This document shows, piece by piece, positions 7,481 to 15,266 of a stretch of DNA of 36,921 nucleotides. The position numbers and the translations under genes were made by a program. Source of the DNA: Ignavibacteriae bacterium HGW-Ignavibacteriae-2 (GTDB lineage Bacteria; Bacteroidota; Ignavibacteria; Ignavibacteriales; Melioribacteraceae); assembly GCA_002839805.1 (NCBI GenBank), contig PGYT01000026.1, forward strand, positions 1 through 36,921, read 5' to 3'. Positions within the stretch are counted from its first letter, which is position 1; the number at the start of each line of letters is the position of its first letter. The notes beneath the pieces were generated by a model that searched no databases, was not told the DNA's origin, and was given only the letters and a program-made list of their open reading frames with translations.

Positions 7481-8047
7481 TTTACACCCTTTTCTCAGGT
7501 CGTATCTTGAAGATCCTGAAAGTGGTTTGATAATTTTAGAAGTAATTCTTTATTGAGAGTTCCAATTTATTAAAAATGCAGGATATTATTTTAAAAAAGT
7601 TTTTCTGAAAACTGCAAACATTCCAGAAAGAAAACATAAAAATCGATATAAAAAATTTTGAATTTGACAAATCATTTTCTCGCTGAATTGGGTATAAATA
7701 TTCAAACGGAGACTTAAAACTAAATATTAAAGTGAAATGATTTTTTTCGTAAGAAGTAAATGTTATCCATATAGATTAGAGTGCAGTTCATACTCACATA
7801 AATTGTCCATAATTGCAATTGATCAAATTATCTTCCGATGTTCTTGATATACTGGAATAAAATCTTGAGGTTTTTCTTTGGACGAGTGTTTTAAATGACA
7901 ATCATCCTGGGTGCGGCAATGCGCCACTAAATAAAAAAACTTACGGTTGATATTTCATTTTAGGGGACAAAATATTTTAACAAGGTAATCCATTTTAAAA
8001 AATTTGACTGATTGCCTGCGAATAATTAAATCGTACTTTTATTACAA
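7481..8047. other. Gene-free stretch between the unknown gene and the chemoreceptor gene
   Basis: About 570 AT-rich bases. It must hold the promoter of the 113-residue gene and transketolase (near 7480) and the end of the chemoreceptor transcript (near 8047). No convincing terminator hairpin was seen. A stop-bounded minus-strand frame of about 44 codons, including a GTG at 7927 and ending at 7823, contains Cys and His residues, but I cannot assign it. No repeat or RNA gene was recognised. Confidence 0.5.
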
Positions 8048-9883
8048 TCAACTTTCTACAATATTTCCGTCAGATTTTACTGAGTATCTTTTAGAATAAT
8101 TAACATTAACTGTAAAACGGCTGATAAGTTTCTGGAGATTTGTTGTCATTCGTGTTAAACCTTCCGAAGCAAGTGCTATTTGTTGAATCCCTGTGGCTGA
8201 TTCCTGCGCGACATTAGAGATATATAGAATGTTCTTATTCATTTGCTCAACAGTGGAAGATTGTTCCTCACTTGCTGCGGCAACCTGATTTACCATGTCT
8301 ATAGTGTCGTTAGTACTATAAATAATTTCATCCAATGCTTCAATCGCTTTTTGAGTCAGATGTTTGCCGGTTTCAACTTGTTCGGTTCCATTTTCAATCG
8401 ATTGAATAGCGTTTCCAGTTTCATTCTGAATTTGAATTACCATAGCAGTAATTGCTTTTGTAGCCTTGGTTGTGCGTTCTGCAAGTTTTCTTACTTCATC
8501 GGCCACGACAACAAATCCTCGGCCTTGTTCACCCGCGCGGGCAGCTTCAATTGCTGCGTTGAGGGCTAAAAGGTTTGTTTGATCGGCAATATCTTCAATC
8601 ACCTGAATAATCTCTCCGATTTTATTGCTGCTGCTACCAAGTTTTTTAATTGTCGCCGCAGCGTTTTCAACAACTTCTGCTATTCTATTCATCCCTTCAA
8701 AAGTATGTTTAACCACTTCTCCACCTTTTCGTGCGGAGGATCCTGCTTTTTCCGAGAATTCAGCAGCGGAACCGGCATTTTTAGTAGTTTGTAATAAATT
8801 GGAAGTCATCTCTTTTACAGCCATTGCAACTTCAGATGCCTGCGTTCCTTGTTTTTGGGCGCCGGCTGCCACTTCTTCAGCGCTGGAGGAAATTTCGCTA
8901 CTTGTTCGGGCGGTTGCGCTAACCGCCTCAGATACACTTAAAATCATCTCTCGTGTATTAATAACAGCGTTGTTAAATCCCTCAAACAATTTCCCAATTT
9001 CATCATTTTTTTCGGCTACTAACTTAATTGTTAAATCACCTGAAGCAAACTTGTTCATCTCCTCAAGAATTTGATTTATTTTTTTCGATAAATAATTTTT
9101 CTTTTCTTCAATTAAGTTTCTTTGAATCTCAGCAGTACGTGTAGCTAACTCGGCTTTGGATTTCTCCTTCATTAGGGAATCCGATGTTTCTTTAATCTGT
9201 GTTGTCATTGTTTTTATTGCTTCGGCCAAGAGACCTACTTCATCTTTTGATTTAACATTAACTTCAACGGATAAATCCCCGTTTCCCACTCTTACGGCTG
9301 TATCCTTAAGATGTTTAATCTGTTTGGTGAAAAACGTACTTATTATAAGAACTATTCCGAAACCCGATAAAAATATAATTAAACTGACCGTATTGGATAA
9401 AGTAGATCGAGCCAATAACTGATTGTTCATTTTATCAAAAGAGTATGCCATAACTATATGACCATACATTTTCTCTTTGTATTTTATTTCCGCAATATTT
9501 GACATATAATTTTCATTCCAAACGACATCCTTATCTAAAAATACTTTGTTTGTTTGCACCGATATATTATTCGGATTGTGAGTAACCAGGCAGGTATTTG
9601 TTTCATCAATAATACTGATATAAATTACATTTGTATCAGACTTCGCCCAGGAAAACGCCGCCTGAACAATATCAAAATTACTCTCAGCAAGTCCAGCCCC
9701 AACTGAAAAAGCTAACATCTCAGACAAGGTTTTAAGATGATTCTCAGCATAATTTTTAAAATCAGCTTTTTGTGTTGAGTAGTTAAAACTATAATTGAAA
9801 ACGGAAATTGACAGCAATAAAAAACTGAAGGTAATAATCAACTTTGCTCGGATGGATTTCTTCCATAATTTAATAGAATACAT
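8048..9883 (-). CDS. Methyl-accepting chemotaxis protein with periplasmic sensor and tandem HAMP
   Basis: Transmembrane chemoreceptor of 611 residues that should signal to CheA/CheW. Order: short cytoplasmic start, membrane segment about 13-35, periplasmic sensor about 36-163 (small, possibly a single-Cache or CHASE8-like fold; not certain), membrane segment about 164-186, HAMP about 187-240 with NGDLSVEV, a second HAMP about 266-318 with SGDLTIKL, then the coiled-coil signalling hairpin. The near-invariant tip is at about 430-470 ([20 protein letters not shown], then [15 protein letters not shown]). No CheR-binding pentapeptide is seen at the C-terminus. It is last in a run after the porin-like gene and the PstS-like gene (124-base gap), so the binding protein may deliver ligand to it. 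No cheA or cheW lies in the window. Confidence 0.93.
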
Positions 9884-10007
9884 AAGTACACCAATACTTC
9901 ATATATTTGAAAGCGCCAATATTGGCAAGTTAAAATTCATATGACAAAAATCCTATATAAGTCAAATTCGTAAAATTAAGTTTCATCTTAAAAGTTCATA
10001 TTAAGAG

Positions 10008-10436
10008 TTAGTCTATTTTTAATAGAACTTTCATATGACTAGGAACCAATTTAGAATCTATAAACCCAATAGCATTGGGAGTCGTAAATATTTTTTCGAG
10101 CATTTCCTTGTCAGATGGAACCATTTCAGGTGGATTTCCATTTCCCGTTAATTTAGCCCTTAACCATTCCTTTTTTATCTCGTGAAAAGACTTACCGATA
10201 GAATGTAAAAGTTTTTTGACTGTTTCATTTTCAGAATTGATAAAAAACAATTTAACTTTTTGCGATCCAAGTTCATTTGACCGGAGTGTGAATAAATTCT
10301 TTAATGTGTTATTATCGATAGCGTTTACAATAATAGTATTGTTGGCGATAACCGAAACTTGCGCGTTAAGTTTTTCTGCAAAAGAGCTTACAAGTATTAC
10401 GATCAGAATTAAGTAATACTTTATTGTGGATAACAT
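10008..10436 (-). CDS. Small PstS-like periplasmic binding protein
   Basis: 142 residues with a Sec signal peptide (about 1-25, ending LNAQ), so periplasmic. The mature part resembles a short, single-lobe-sized piece of the PstS/PBP-like phosphate-binding superfamily: a start like VIANNTIIVNAID, NLFTLRSNELGSQKVKLFF, EWLRAKLTGNGNPP and, near the end, TTPNAIGFID, which resembles the PGAIGY-type loop of PstS proteins. It is much shorter than PstS (about 300), and no pst permease genes are nearby, so transport is unlikely. A sensory role with the chemoreceptor gene downstream is inferred. It starts at ATG after AAGGA and lies 27 bases past the porin-like gene, which indicates co-transcription. 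Phosphate as ligand is not shown. Confidence 0.75.
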   Translation of the reverse strand: MLSTIKYYLILIVILVSSFAEKLNAQVSVIANNTIIVNAIDNNTLKNLFTLRSNELGSQKVKLFFINSENETVKKLLHSIGKSFHEIKKEWLRAKLTGNGNPPEMVPSDKEMLEKIFTTPNAIGFIDSKLVPSHMKVLLKID

Positions 10437-10463
10437 TTTAATTCCTTAAGATTTTATTAATAA

Positions 10464-11669
10464 TTAAAAAGTAACACTTGCACCGAAAGCGTAAATATTT
10501 TCCGAATAATCTCTTTTGGGAATAAAATTTTCCCCTGTATCATAACGTGCAAAATTTTTGTTATACTGAAATTTTAATATTATCGAATCATTGATGTAAT
10601 ATCCGCCCCCTATATGCGCTCCGTAATAACCGTCCAGACCAAAATAATAAGGATCTAATTTGTCATTTAAGTAATCGTACATCACGTAAATAAAAAGCTT
10701 TTCATCATAATTATATTGAAGAGTTGCATAAAAAAACTTTTTGTCAAAACTTTTGCCAATAAAATAAGGTTCAGAAGCATTCCAGGTATTTAGTGAGTCC
10801 TGGATATCTGTAGGAACATCTGTTGCTGTAATTAAAAATTCTGAAGAAAATTCAAATTTTCCCATACTCAAATAAATATCAGCTCCCAATCTATATCGAT
10901 CCATATTTCCCAGATTTACCACATCGCCGGAGTAATTTTTAATAAAGTTTTGTCTGTTATCAACATCTATATTTCCAGATACACCCGCTTTCAAATTCCC
11001 ATATTTTAATCCAATTCTGCCACCGTAACAAAAGAACTTTTCTCCACTTTGACCGTAAGGAACATAACCGGGCAATATATCGTTATCCGGTGATGACAAG
11101 AATTTATTTGGTGGGTTTCCCGCAAATAAAGCATATTCAATATTTGCCGATTCTATCGGCACTACACCATATATTTGGATGAGAGCTTTTTGAGGAAGTA
11201 TATCAAATATATCTACAAGATTTCCAGTAGTTGCGTCATAAAGTTTTGGTCTTATAATGTATGGAAGCAAGGGAGTTCTGTTATATATTTCAAATAAACT
11301 GTTAAATTGCGGAATTATCATACCGAATTTCACCTTAAGAAAATCTCTATAATCCCACTTGATGTATGCTTCTTGCAGATTAAAAGATCCAAATCCTTTA
11401 TCACTGGAATAATTGTTAATAAACTCAAGGTTAATGAAGCTTGAAAAATTATCACCGAAATCTTTATTAAAAAATAAATTAAGTTGATTTATACCCATAT
11501 TATGGTACGTATAGTTCTGCTCTCCTTGGGGGGGATAAGGATCGTATTTGTTGTTATATAGAAGATAGGATGATTGGGCATATCCATAAATTTCAATAGA
11601 ACTTTGCGCAATTAAGGCCTCAGAAATCGGAAAACTTAATAGCAAAAGAAGTATTAATTTTTTAGACAT
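10464..11669 (-). CDS. Outer-membrane porin-like beta-barrel protein
   Basis: Predicted outer-membrane barrel. I place the start at the ATG at 11669: a GTGGAG ribosome binding site is seven bases upstream and a clean signal peptide follows (MSKKLILLLLLSF, cleavage after about residue 22, ALIAQ). The longer frame to 11738 only adds 23 residues before the signal peptide. The mature protein of about 380 residues is rich in aromatic and alternating polar/hydrophobic strands (IEIYGYAQSSYLL, LNLFFNKDF, FFYATLQYNY) and ends GASVTF; a C-terminal Phe is typical of barrel insertion signals. It lies directly before the PstS-like and chemoreceptor genes. By analogy with OprP/OprO-type porins it may pass phosphate or another anion, but selectivity is not visible. 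Confidence 0.8.
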   Translation of the reverse strand: MSKKLILLLLLSFPISEALIAQSSIEIYGYAQSSYLLYNNKYDPYPPQGEQNYTYHNMGINQLNLFFNKDFGDNFSSFINLEFINNYSSDKGFGSFNLQEAYIKWDYRDFLKVKFGMIIPQFNSLFEIYNRTPLLPYIIRPKLYDATTGNLVDIFDILPQKALIQIYGVVPIESANIEYALFAGNPPNKFLSSPDNDILPGYVPYGQSGEKFFCYGGRIGLKYGNLKAGVSGNIDVDNRQNFIKNYSGDVVNLGNMDRYRLGADIYLSMGKFEFSSEFLITATDVPTDIQDSLNTWNASEPYFIGKSFDKKFFYATLQYNYDEKLFIYVMYDYLNDKLDPYYFGLDGYYGAHIGGGYYINDSIILKFQYNKNFARYDTGENFIPKRDYSENIYAFGASVTF

Positions 11670-11873
11670 TATAGCTCCACAATATATTTTATAACTATTG
11701 GTTATAGTTATTCTTTTTGTTTTTCCTATTATCATCAATTTTCGAAAAACGTGATAAATAATTAGAAATAAAAACTTAAATGACCTGAAAAAGAAAACAA
11801 ATTAAAACTATTATCGCATGAATACACTAAATGTTTAATTTTAAAAATAATGTATTTAATTATTTGTGTAGAT

Positions 11874-11905
11874 TACATTATTTTGATTTGAACTACATTA
11901 TTCTG
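11874..11905. repeat. 20-bp-phased direct repeat, possible response-regulator operator
   Basis: TACATTATTTTG (11874-11885) and TACATTATTCTG (11894-11905) match at 11 of 12 positions and start 20 bases apart, about two helical turns. LytTR regulators typically bind two direct repeats about 21 bp apart, and a LytTR regulator gene lies about 0.9 kb away. The region is AT-rich, so chance is possible. Confidence 0.35.
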
Positions 11906-12259
11906 TTGTGAAATGCACATTTATTATAGTCGTCGATTTTATTTACATATTATTTAGAATCTTGAATCCCAGTACTTCAAATAAACGCTTAGTAATATTA
12001 TGATCTTCTCGGCTGTGTTGAAAAACATTTTCTGATTTTTCCTGGTTACAAATGAACATTTTCCTAACTAGTGTCAATTTACCGTTTATTACAAGTTTAT
12101 TTTTTTAATACCAATTCTTTTATCTTTCGTAGTTAAATTCCGTTGTTCCGATTGAATCTCAAATCGATCAATTCAATTTTCAATCATAATGAGTGATAAT
12201 TGTTCCAACTTCAATTTCTGTGATGTAATTTTAAAGGATGGCATTATACTCGAGAAGAT

Positions 12260-12292
12260 GGAAGGTTCTCCGGAGGAGGTGGAGAGCCTTCC
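12260..12292 (-). other. Stable hairpin with CCTCC-rich loop after the chemoreceptor-tail gene
   Basis: A 12-bp stem (GGAAGGCTCTCC with GGAGAACCTTCC on the minus strand, one G-U pair) closes a nine-base loop ACCTCCTCC. It begins about 10 bases past the stop of the short chemoreceptor-tail gene. It has no T-run, so it is not a standard intrinsic terminator. It may protect an mRNA end or form part of a small RNA. Confidence 0.55.
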
Positions 12293-12302
12293 TTTAGAAG
12301 TA

Positions 12303-12608
12303 TTAGTTGTATTTCTTTGAGGTGGATTCTTTAAAATTACCCGATTTATTCCTAATCTTAGAATTAACCGAAAGACTATTGATCAAACTTTCCAAATTTT
12401 CTGTTAAATTTTTTAACTCGTCTGAAGTCATTGATATTTGCTGGATCCCCGCGAGCGATTTACTATTTATTCCGCATAGGGCGGAAAGATCAGGCAATTT
12501 GTCTTCCGAATTATCCTCACCTGCGGATAAAGCTTTATTCACAGATTCTAAAACATTTTTTGTTCTTTGTACTATTTCCCCAAGTGATTTGCTTTCATTT
12601 TGAATCAT
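12303..12608 (-). CDS. Orphan chemoreceptor-tail-like protein (101 residues), possibly a remnant
   Basis: A short soluble protein that resembles only the C-terminal descending helix of a chemoreceptor signalling domain. Residues about 54-83 (GIQQISMTSDELKNLTENLE and on) align with residues 565-593 of the chemoreceptor encoded at 8048-9883, about 14 identities in 30 positions, and the start MIQNESK resembles its IQNET at about 485. The stretch between is some 30 residues shorter. No membrane segment, HAMP, methylation helix or conserved tip is present. The ATG at 12608 has AGAGGG about 10 bases upstream, so it could be translated; the frame opens only six codons further before a stop. It is either a decayed second chemoreceptor or a small protein retained to interact with receptor helices; I cannot decide. 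Confidence 0.55.
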   Translation of the reverse strand: MIQNESKSLGEIVQRTKNVLESVNKALSAGEDNSEDKLPDLSALCGINSKSLAGIQQISMTSDELKNLTENLESLINSLSVNSKIRNKSGNFKESTSKKYN

Positions 12609-12828
12609 TTGGTTAGCCCTCTGAAATTACATTCAAATTAAAATAACAACTATTTTGCCCTTTGTTACAAATCTATATTGAAAAACCAACCCATTTTACA
12701 AAACATCACGGATTACAATTATACTATCGACAGCTCTATTTTTAATATTAATTGAAGTGATTTGAAATGCTATGGAATGTTCTGAATTGCCTATAAATGT
12801 TGCAGAATGCTAAATTTCGAAAAACCAA

Positions 12829-13587
12829 TTAAAAAATAATTTTTCCTTTTAATGCAGATTTGTAGCTCCTGCTTATTTTTAACGGTTCTTTATAATTTTG
12901 AATATACAACAACAGAGTCTGGTTGAACCATTTTTCGACGTGTGAAACTGCTAAAATATTAATTATTGTTGACCTATGAATTCGGATGAATGATTCATTG
13001 GGCAAAATATGCTCCCAATCATTTAAAGACTTTCTAACTTCTATCTTTTGGGTATTATTCATATATACTTCGGAATATACACCATCGGCTTTAATAAAAT
13101 CGATCGATTTAATGGCAATTCTTTCTAGTTTTTTACCTACATCAAGCAGAATAAAATTATCAATTTTTAAAAGAGTCTCTTGTGGTTTAGGTTTGAGTTT
13201 CGAGTAGTGAGCATTTTCTTTATGTAAACTAATTCTTGAATTAACCGCGTCCAATAATTCGGAAATTTTAAATGGTTTAGTCAGGTAATCGTCGGCCCCC
13301 AAATTCATACCTTTTCTTATATCATCGCGGTCAACTTTTGCGGTAATAAATATAAATGGAATCGTTGATAAGGTGTGATGTTTTTTGATCTCATTAAAAA
13401 CCCAATAACCATCTTTTTCGGGCATCATAATATCACATAAAATAAGATCGGGAGTAGAATCCAATTTTTTAATAAATACCTCCGATCCATTTGAGAACTC
13501 ATCAACTTGGAAACCGCTTCTTTCCAAGGCAATACGGATGTTTTGCCGTAATTGTTTATCGTCTTCAATTAGCATGATGTTGTTCAT
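12829..13587 (-). CDS. LytTR-family response regulator
   Basis: Two-component DNA-binding regulator. From the ATG at 13587 it is 252 residues. The receiver domain (about 1-120) has the acidic pair D9-D10, the phospho-accepting D52 in LCDIMMPEKDG, T82 in FITAK and K104 in LTKPF. The LytTR DNA-binding domain (about 150-248) shows IDFIKADGVYSEVY, the ...RKSLNDWEHILP and FIRIHRSTIIN segments and a terminal ISRSYKSALKG. The frame can be extended to a TTG at 13599, but the AGGA there is only one or two bases away, so I prefer the ATG. No histidine kinase gene is adjacent, making it an orphan regulator. Its position upstream of the chemoreceptor-tail and porin operon, and the 20-bp-phased repeat in between, suggest local control (inference). 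Confidence 0.9.
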   Translation of the reverse strand: MNNIMLIEDDKQLRQNIRIALERSGFQVDEFSNGSEVFIKKLDSTPDLILCDIMMPEKDGYWVFNEIKKHHTLSTIPFIFITAKVDRDDIRKGMNLGADDYLTKPFKISELLDAVNSRISLHKENAHYSKLKPKPQETLLKIDNFILLDVGKKLERIAIKSIDFIKADGVYSEVYMNNTQKIEVRKSLNDWEHILPNESFIRIHRSTIINILAVSHVEKWFNQTLLLYIQNYKEPLKISRSYKSALKGKIIF

Positions 13588-14108
13588 ACGCGAAAACAAT
13601 TCCTGCGAAAAAAATTAAGAAAGGATTTCCAAAAATTTTTCTTAAATAAACAAAATTTACCTTAATAATAATAAAACTATTTTATATAAAAGATCTGTGG
13701 CCAATTAATAAGGTTTTCTGAACTATTATGCAACAGCGATTACTTTTTTTTTTGAGAGGATTCATCAGATAACATTCATCAAGATATTTCCCCTATGCTT
13801 ACAGGACTTACTTCGCTCACCCGTTTTAGATTATTTAAATGCTACGCTAATCTCCGGTGATGGGAATAAAAATTAATATGATAGAAAGATTTTCAACAGT
13901 CGTCGGAGAGTATGAGACGTCCAATACCTAAAAAGGTGTTTCACGTTTAATTATCAAGTTTTTTACTCTGGCAGTCGGAGGAGCATTAGTTCTCGAAATA
14001 GAAAAACAAAAAATCGGTGCAGTTATCATTGGATAAACAGGCACAAGTTACATCCGAAGATGTTTGCATATAATTATTTATAGTAATACTGGCAAACGTA
14101 AATCATAT
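13588..14108. other. Gap between MFS transporter and response regulator genes
   Basis: About 520 bases. The right part (13851-14075) contains a possible plus-strand channel relic, listed separately. A short plus-strand frame at 13728-13772 (14 codons) may be a further piece of it. The response-regulator promoter should lie close to 13600. No hairpin or repeat stands out. Confidence 0.4.
13851..14075 (+). pseudogene. Possible relic of a ClC-type chloride channel gene
   Basis: One plus-strand frame, broken by two stop codons, reads SPVMGIKINMIERF, then after a stop GVSRLIIKFFTLAVGGALVL and EIEKQKIGAVIIG, then a stop. By eye this follows the ClC channel region around ...RVLPVKFFGGLGTLGGG, ...REGPTVQIGG: KFF, TL, GG, VL, E and IG occur in the right order with a few gaps. 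The match is short and degraded, so this is only a suggestion. It is on the opposite strand from all its neighbours. Confidence 0.3.
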
Positions 14109-15266
14109 TTAAATTCGGGCTTTGCTATCATTTACAAAAAATAAAAGAATAATAGATATGAGGGTTAGAAAAAGTGACAAATAAAAAGGCGCCGTAATTC
14201 CAATTTGATCCCACAACAAACCGGCAATAAAAGATGCCGGAAAAGCACACAATCCTGTTATCATTTGAAATCCCCCCAGCATGCTTGCACGGTATTCTTT
14301 AGGGACAATTTCCGAAATAAAAGTTTTTTGTACGGGTTCCAGCGCACCTTTATGTAAACCATAAATTATGAACGCTAGCACGATAAGAAAAACATTTGTT
14401 CCCATAATAAATATTAAACTTACAAGTCCCCAAAATATATAAGCGATCATCAGTATAGGTTTCCTGCCGTATTTATCTGCAAGTTTGCCGAATGGTAAAG
14501 ATACGGCCGATGCTACAGCTGTAAATATAAGATAAAGAATTGGCACGGTACCAATACTAAAATTATACTCATTAGCGAATATCAACAGAAATGAATAACT
14601 GAATGAACCAAGAGCGAAAAAGGAACTTAGCAACAAATATAATCTAAAATTACTTGTAAGATCTTTTAAACGAATTCCTTTATAAACCTTCTTATCACTA
14701 ACTTTATATTCTTTAATAAAAAATAATATTAATAAAACTCCTATTAGAGATGGAATAGCGGCCAGCATAAATAAATATTTGTATCCAATGAGGTCGAAAA
14801 GAAGAATACAAATAATTATACCAACCAAGGCTCCTAAATTATCCATCATTCTAAGAATACCGAAGTTTCTGCCCCGATCATTAATCGTAGAAATATCTGC
14901 TATTATTGCGTCTCTCGGTGCACTGCGTATTTTTCCGGCACGATCCAAAATTCTGAACGGAATAAGATGCTGCCAGACAGAAGAAAGCGCGTAACCTATC
15001 CGTGAAAAAGATCCAAATAAATATCCAGCCCAAACAAAAATTTTGCGTTTTCTTAATCTGTCCGATAAATATCCCGAAGCGGCTTGTGATATTGAAACCA
15101 ACGCTTCCCCTAATCCGTCGATAAATCCGAGTACCGACATATTTGCACCCAGAACAGTTGTAACGAACATTGGCCATATAGGATATATCATATCCGAACC
15201 CATGTCGTTTAAGAATGAGGCGGCAGCAAATACCTTTAAAGTTTTTTTGTTTTCTTTGTTTTCCAT
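14109..15266 (-). CDS. Major facilitator superfamily transporter
   Basis: Inner-membrane secondary transporter of 385 residues with about 12 hydrophobic segments. The MFS loop motif after the second segment is visible as GYLSDRLRKRK at about 64-74, and its repeat in the second half as GKLADKYGRKP at about 258-268. A further family-like sequence is RAGKIRSAPRDAIIAD at about 109-124, seen in MFS proteins often annotated as drug or multidrug efflux. The substrate cannot be read. It is transcribed in the same direction as the permease gene to its right, with a gap of about 97 bases, so a shared transcript is possible but not shown. Confidence 0.9.
   Translation of the reverse strand: MENKENKKTLKVFAAASFLNDMGSDMIYPIWPMFVTTVLGANMSVLGFIDGLGEALVSISQAASGYLSDRLRKRKIFVWAGYLFGSFSRIGYALSSVWQHLIPFRILDRAGKIRSAPRDAIIADISTINDRGRNFGILRMMDNLGALVGIIICILLFDLIGYKYLFMLAAIPSLIGVLLILFFIKEYKVSDKKVYKGIRLKDLTSNFRLYLLLSSFFALGSFSYSFLLIFANEYNFSIGTVPILYLIFTAVASAVSLPFGKLADKYGRKPILMIAYIFWGLVSLIFIMGTNVFLIVLAFIIYGLHKGALEPVQKTFISEIVPKEYRASMLGGFQMITGLCAFPASFIAGLLWDQIGITAPFYLSLFLTLISIILLFFVNDSKARI

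Follow-up and report, generated by a model that had tools for sequence, protein, structure and literature searches.

A porin, a single-lobed PstS-like protein and a chemoreceptor as a candidate trans-envelope sensory cassette in an Ignavibacteriae genome

The stretch of DNA analysed here, referred to as the window, comprises the 36,921 nucleotides of contig PGYT01000026.1 of Ignavibacteriae bacterium HGW-Ignavibacteriae-2 (assembly GCA_002839805.1) and carries on its minus strand adjoining genes for a putative outer-membrane barrel, a 142-residue periplasmic protein and a methyl-accepting chemotaxis protein (MCP). We consider it moderately probable that the genes at 8048-11738 constitute one copy of a conserved trans-envelope sensory cassette, composed of a porin, half of a periplasmic binding protein (half-PBP) serving as co-receptor or regulatory subunit, and an exchangeable sensor. 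The arrangement itself is real, widespread and, as far as literature searches reach, undescribed, since no account of a porin/half-PBP/sensor unit was found in open-licence PubMed Central papers; it would be a variant of PBP-assisted sensing. The conservation of the porin, the short PstS-like protein and the sensor as a unit makes a sensing role likely.

Five open reading frames (ORFs) form a single run on the minus strand, at the positions named in an earlier sequence-only reading of the window, and follow one another in transcription as a LytTR response regulator, an ORF resembling an MCP tail, the barrel, the 142-residue protein and the MCP. The gene order, strand, spacings and tandem HAMP domains described in that reading are confirmed by the ORF list and the Pfam scan. 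The barrel gene (10464..11738) is separated by exactly 27 bases from the gene of the short protein (10008..10436), which in turn lies exactly 124 bases from the MCP gene (8048..9883). Counts from a promoter scan of the locus (30 against 31.9) and from a terminator scan (1 against 3.6) were not above those of shuffled sequence. The likely start of the barrel is at 11669, where the better ATG is followed by what appears by eye to be a signal-peptide-like stretch. The window barrel itself has no Pfam match; among nine aligned members of its family, three match Porin_O_P and two match Porin_4 at E <= 0.1, and profile matches to the PDB are weak only, the best being a designed barrel (E 0.014). The assignment as a porin-type outer-membrane beta-barrel is therefore a candidate one, drawn from these weak family matches and from recurrence beside the short PBP.

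The three-gene neighbourhood that had been singled out in the window does co-occur in relatives, with a sensor usually completing the porin/PBP pair. Matches to the short protein at E <= 0.01 are present in 14 genomes, the window's own included, among 97 relatives; one relative was dropped because its match lies in a 658-residue frame beside a 2127-residue ORF (G053), and another because it repeats the match of G061 (G059). At 11 further loci (L018-L028), a porin homologue adjoins the short protein in nine by blastp, and the other two carry an ORF of 362 or 353 residues in its place. A larger set of 80 named loci represents the best 80 of at least 453 confirmed and therefore favours sequences near the query set; it spans Ignavibacteria, Calditrichota, KSB1, Bacteroidetes, Acidobacteria, Planctomycetota, one Opitutaceae and many Proteobacteria. 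Here a porin-type ORF is the immediate same-strand neighbour of 75 of the 82 short PBPs, and 76 of the 85 porin-type ORFs, among 753 ORFs in total, fall within 450 bases of a short PBP.

Two additional samples were chosen by the PBP profile alone and consist of best-scoring loci of about 3.4 kb each: 30 from the window's phylum (the phylum sample), where the search matched 131 genomes, and 29 from the class to which Marinobacter belongs, where it matched 69 genomes. Of the 28 short-form loci in the phylum sample, 27 have the porin adjacent, including 23 of the 24 from genomes that had not seeded the first models; the two full-length PstS loci of the sample both lack such a neighbour. The locus table and the class sample used a porin model that also incorporated ORFs of the named loci; in the phylum sample this extended model and the first one matched the same loci. 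All 29 loci of the class sample have a porin-type ORF within 3.4 kb on the same strand, and the PBP profile matches 69 of the 274 genomes sampled from this class at E <= 1e-12, in frames that are all of 213 residues or fewer. Its presence in three samples argues that the porin/short-PBP adjacency is beyond chance. According to the neighbourhood table, the clades differ in gene order yet keep the set.

The set also appears on plasmids. Four of the 23 annotated plasmid records with a match were inspected; a Pseudomonas aeruginosa record has consecutive genes for an MCP, a porin and a 'phosphate ABC transporter substrate-binding protein', and in one record an EAL protein adjoins the PBP. A blastn comparison of window positions 8000-11800 with plasmids found no record covering 80%, and the five matches listed, among 2214 records, are MCP genes covering 5-6%. 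As separate observations, an Alteromonas plasmid carries a PBP gene and a barrel-sized gene that adjoin type IV CRISPR-associated csf genes (L155:3944-8339), a 2.8-Mb genome sampled from the Marinobacter class (G560) yields 11 short-PBP matches, which suggests cassette expansion, and the porin gene of one relative contains in-frame stops that reflect either decay or assembly error (L035:381-1535).

The short protein begins with a signal-peptide-like N-terminus and is predicted, from its AlphaFold model, profile matches and alignment, to consist of one lobe of PstS (domain 2) without the phosphate loop. Specifically, the model has a mean predicted local distance difference test (pLDDT) score of 92.7, its residues 23-142 superpose on residues 107-235 of chain 4gd5 (Z 14.9, 108 residues, 1.8 Å), and a profile built from 12 relatives aligns with 1twy, the phosphate receptor of Vibrio cholerae, over residues 105-216 (E 1.4e-9). 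The modelled protein is the second lobe of PstS alone, with the lobe fold of the PBP superfamily. Pfam and NCBIfam yield no significant match for the window protein itself; in a 69-member alignment, comprising the window protein and 68 of the 82 short PBPs, 58 members match PF12849 (PBP_like_2) at E <= 0.01 and 53 match the PstS model TIGR02136 at E <= 0.1. The earlier description of this protein as 'PstS-like' thus stands for the predicted fold and for those family members, but not for the window copy as Pfam sees it.

The two-lobe architecture of PstS is absent from this family, in which the longest of 91 collected sequences reaches 186 residues including its N-terminal region, and a single lobe provides no two-lobe ligand clamp. 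Also absent is the R-x-x-x-S-G-T loop of the second PstS lobe, which we take to have a phosphate-binding role. This loop is visible in the aligned PDB PstS chains 1twy, 4q8r and 4gd5 and is retained in two of three full-length PstS frames; none of the 90 family rows has it at the corresponding alignment position (match columns only, some rows coming from one genome under two locus ids), nor does any of the 28 short ORFs of the phylum sample (insertions kept). The occurrence of SGT anywhere in a sequence was rejected as a sign of the loop: 29 of the 91 sequences carry SGT, a whole-ORF pattern gives hits in 10 of the 29 Marinobacter-class loci, and in the few of the 91 that were inspected SGT mostly belongs to a different stretch, R-x-x-[FY]-S-G-T, after a conserved tryptophan. 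The near-fixed positions of the family, counted over the 90 rows, are P100 and G121 (90 each), A119 (89), I120 (87), G95 (85) and W88 (84).

With the phosphate loop missing, capture of an anion in the PstS manner is unsupported, and phosphate binding of the PstS kind is improbable for a lobe that has neither its mate nor the loop. Judged from the sequences, the ligand is probably not phosphate held in that way. Several of these short genes are nonetheless named 'phosphate ABC transporter substrate-binding protein' in public records, a transporter-type annotation that is probably misleading: the lobe is homologous to that of the transporter proteins described by TIGR02136 and PF12849, but the short family has half their length and no phosphate loop.

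The sensor of the window is an MCP of 611 residues, whose layout of transmembrane segment, periplasmic domain, transmembrane segment, HAMP and MCP signalling hairpin is confirmed by Pfam and AlphaFold. The predicted periplasmic sensor domain of about 130 residues (about residues 34-160) is encoded at 9404..9784, the first HAMP domain (PF00672, residues 184-231) at 9191..9334 and the signalling domain (PF00015, residues 375-558) at 8210..8761; Pfam recognises two HAMP stretches together with MCPsignal at E 1.6e-49. The AlphaFold model of residues 1-245 has a mean pLDDT of 86.9, and the structural neighbours of its sensor domain include the extracellular domain of WalK (4ywz; Z 11.3, 122 aligned, 2.7 Å), the LapD orthologue CdgS9 (4u64; Z 11.2, 117 aligned, 2.9 Å) and the LuxP-LuxQ complex entry 2hj9 (Z 9.2, 114 aligned, 3.1 Å). 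In the model, the periplasmic domain is PAS/sCache-like. Six relatives (L018-L023) carry MCPs in the same position that are 36-53% identical to this one.

Sensors at other loci differ in output. All 12 of the nearer sensors, the window's included, have HAMP, combined with MCPsignal in seven, HATPase_c in three and SpoIIE in two. Across the named loci, sequence motifs identify a sensor output within two same-strand genes of 57 of the 82 short PBPs, divided into GGDEF+EAL (22), MCP (19), histidine kinase (13), GGDEF (2) and EAL (1). A Pfam survey covered 56 sensors, namely the window's and 55 of 64 candidates, hand-picked and not random. At E <= 1e-5 its matches were MCPsignal 22, GGDEF 23, EAL 22, HATPase_c 11 and HAMP 31, with dCache_3 22 and 4HB_MCP_1 8 among periplasmic domains; for the N-terminal parts at the looser E <= 0.01 the periplasmic matches were dCache_3 23, 4HB_MCP_1 11, dCache_1 8, TarH 7 and CHASE8 4. 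Because the periplasmic domains of the sensors differ, the porin/PBP pair is the constant element. In one histidine-kinase version (L032) a response regulator carrying a nucleotide cyclase domain comes after the kinase. The proposal that the window's chemoreceptor senses gains from the conserved unit, from which a sensing role is likely, but chemotaxis is not the general output, as kinases and cyclic di-GMP (c-di-GMP) enzymes occur as well.

Analysis of a PBP tree (82 rows, 62 with an output label) reveals only five changes of output type, against 22-33 (mean 27.6) in 200 label shuffles, so that PBP type and sensor type go together. The tree is built on few columns and leaves out the 86-residue fragment L051; five of its labels were set by hand (L042, L066, L086, L090, L091) and two were set to none (L072, L073). 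Dropping all hand-set labels still gives five output changes (57 rows).

Under the favoured interpretation, the half-PBP would dock on the periplasmic domain of the sensor as a co-receptor or regulatory subunit and report either what passes the porin or whether something occupies this partner porin, and the sensor would then feed a CheA array, with chemotaxis as the output here. In other lineages the same porin/half-PBP pair occurs with histidine kinases, SpoIIE-type outputs or GGDEF/EAL proteins. Precedents for such docking are PstS on CtpL, LuxP on LuxQ and YfiR on YfiN. LuxP is a two-lobed PBP that binds autoinducer 2 and acts on the double-Cache sensor LuxQ, and no porin is known to belong to that system; the likeness would consist in a PBP-fold co-receptor placed on a PAS-fold periplasmic domain, as proposed for the cassette. 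The genome of the window contains matches to three MCPs, two CheW-family proteins (one in a 642-residue frame) and flagellin, and CheA-, CheB- and CheY-like ORFs were recognised by eye (L149). These chemotaxis and flagellin genes make chemotaxis a credible output.

A close rival to the co-receptor reading, rather unlikely in our estimate, is that the half-PBP represses the sensor without any small ligand and is titrated or removed according to the state of the envelope, such as redox, porin assembly or cell-wall stress. This would follow the mode of YfiR in the YfiB-YfiR-YfiN system, which spans the outer membrane, the periplasm and a CHASE8-HAMP-GGDEF sensor and in which YfiB is an OmpA-type lipoprotein. 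The cassette shares this three-compartment logic, and the N-terminus of the window MCP resembles both YfiN (E 2.2e-4) and the kinases of NF053592 ('sensor histidine kinase, YfiR-like protein-associated'; E 1.4e-11 with HAMP included, 44 bits against a cut-off of 194), in each case below the cut-off. The window MCP has no CHASE8 match, and four of the 56 sensors match CHASE8 weakly (best E 8.7e-4). Loss of the PstS phosphate loop is likewise consistent with a repressor that needs no small ligand. Opposing this mode, the periplasmic partner is a PstS lobe rather than a DUF4154 protein, with no DUF4154 match among the 69 short-PBP members (Pfam, E <= 0.01); the outer-membrane partner is a porin-type barrel, the outputs vary, and the cassette also holds sensors with 4HB or dCache_3 domains.

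The model offered by the sequence-only reading has the porin admit an anion, phosphate or another, which the short protein binds and passes on to the chemoreceptor; this handover would parallel that from PstS to CtpL, and the model now appears improbable. The predicted fold of a PstS lobe speaks for it, as do the three of nine family porins with weak resemblance to Porin_O_P and the relay from PstS to CtpL in P. aeruginosa. For that relay, PMC4926252 describes a PstS that binds phosphate with very high affinity and acts on the chemoreceptor CtpL, a pstS gene associated with transporter genes, and a CtpL ligand-binding domain of 286 residues that is predicted to be helical. The cassette is likewise proposed to work through a periplasmic relative of PstS that acts on a chemoreceptor. 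Unlike the PstS-CtpL pair, however, the cassette has one lobe, a porin partner and a PAS-like domain of about 130 residues, and its phosphate loop is missing throughout the aligned rows and the phylum sample, so that anion capture by a PstS-type site is not supported. Moreover, the transporter linkage described for CtpL's PstS is absent, with no PstC, PstA or PstB among the eight window ORFs scanned with Pfam (the other module loci were not scanned for them) and pst-like operons located on other contigs.

That the porin/half-PBP pair serves uptake or porin maturation, with the sensor merely a genetic neighbour, is very unlikely: plasmid records with the pair and no annotated sensor beside it, and the short PBPs without a recognised sensor within two genes, would fit it, but 57 of 82 do have a sensor with one of several unrelated outputs, output type tracks the PBP tree, and multi-transmembrane ORFs are few and non-recurring in the neighbourhood table, which was not domain-scanned.

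Several observations weigh against the sensory-cassette interpretation that we favour. The porin assignment is weak by Pfam and by PDB profile, and the window short protein has diverged, with an end branch of 1.65 on the PBP tree, and has no counterpart of a tryptophan that is frequent among its relatives. For 25 of the 82 short PBPs, some of them at contig ends, no sensor output is recognised within two genes; in two of the four plasmid records no annotated sensor stands directly beside the porin/PBP pair, and the pair may therefore work without a linked sensor. One close relative (G015, L018:6795-8430; the same genome as L051) has in-frame stops, from either decay or assembly error, in its porin and PBP genes and an open MCP gene. 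Finally, the pairing of PBP type with sensor type could reflect clade history alone, close relatives sharing both.

A broader generalisation is put forward tentatively: the porin and half-PBP may form a general, unnamed input device in which a PstS lobe that lost its phosphate site links a barrel to interchangeable taxis, phosphorelay or c-di-GMP sensors, and in one Pseudomonadota GGDEF/EAL branch the signal may be a self-made acyl compound. Should the half-PBP prove to be a signalling co-receptor, it would supply a candidate input partner for many chemoreceptors, kinases and c-di-GMP enzymes whose signals are unknown, and the wiring of an outer-membrane pore to a sensor through the periplasm would become directly testable.

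The suggestion of an acyl signal derives from a Pseudomonadota clade of 33 rows in the PBP tree, mostly with GGDEF/EAL sensors: 26 of these rows have an exosortase-associated acyltransferase gene close to the unit, on one side or the other, and the remaining 47 named loci yielded none. The gene is positioned just upstream of the PBP in nitrosomonads and downstream of the GGDEF/EAL gene in halomonads, and is on the other strand in two of the 26 (L075, L103). The loci concerned span L061-L109, for example L064:5094-5915 and L084:10437-11249. The seven representatives tested all score above the cut-off set for TIGR03694 ('PEP-CTERM/exosortase system-associated acyltransferase'), and at L064 the two genes further upstream pass the cut-offs of exosortase-A-associated models. 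This proximity may mean that an acyl product is sensed, or simply that c-di-GMP controls a surface-polymer cluster. The genome of the window has no PF13444 match at E <= 0.01, so this lead is not directly applicable to the window copy.

Two genes that the sequence-only reading had counted with the system are judged to lie outside the unit. The LytTR gene (12829..13599, with an in-frame ATG at 13587) encodes a response regulator with a LytTR DNA-binding domain (Pfam, Response_reg E 9.1e-28 and LytTR E 2.1e-23) and was rejected as a member, a relative being present in just one of the 80 named loci. The 101-residue ORF at 12303..12608 resembles an MCP C-terminal region that lacks the signalling tip; it can be aligned to residues 509-593 of the MCP in the window (31% identity, E 2e-10). 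Its distance to the porin ORF is 564 bases, which sets it and the LytTR gene apart from the unit, and its sole match outside MCP-sized ORFs in the named loci is a 124-residue ORF located 59 bases from the contig end of L082. Decay of a full MCP was rejected as its origin, because tblastn of the MCP against 11700-14200 returned two short chance-level matches (E 0.4 and 5). Altogether the sequence-only reading is partly supported: it saw the unit correctly, over-read the ligand and included these two genes that do not belong.

Elsewhere in the genome, on other contigs, there are two full-length PstS genes, and by eye the ORFs after each of them look like a pst operon. That the unit has no pst genes close by therefore says little, and the argument for sensing drawn from this fails for the genome as a whole. 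In one of these pst-like operons, an ORF resembling Porin_O_P (E 4.3e-4, narrowly below the cut-off) stands immediately before the full-length PstS gene (L151:1586-2563, contig 98). In the che-like cluster on contig 73, two small TonB_C proteins are encoded directly upstream of an MCP-region gene whose sequence includes a stretch of undetermined bases (L149:9913-11013).

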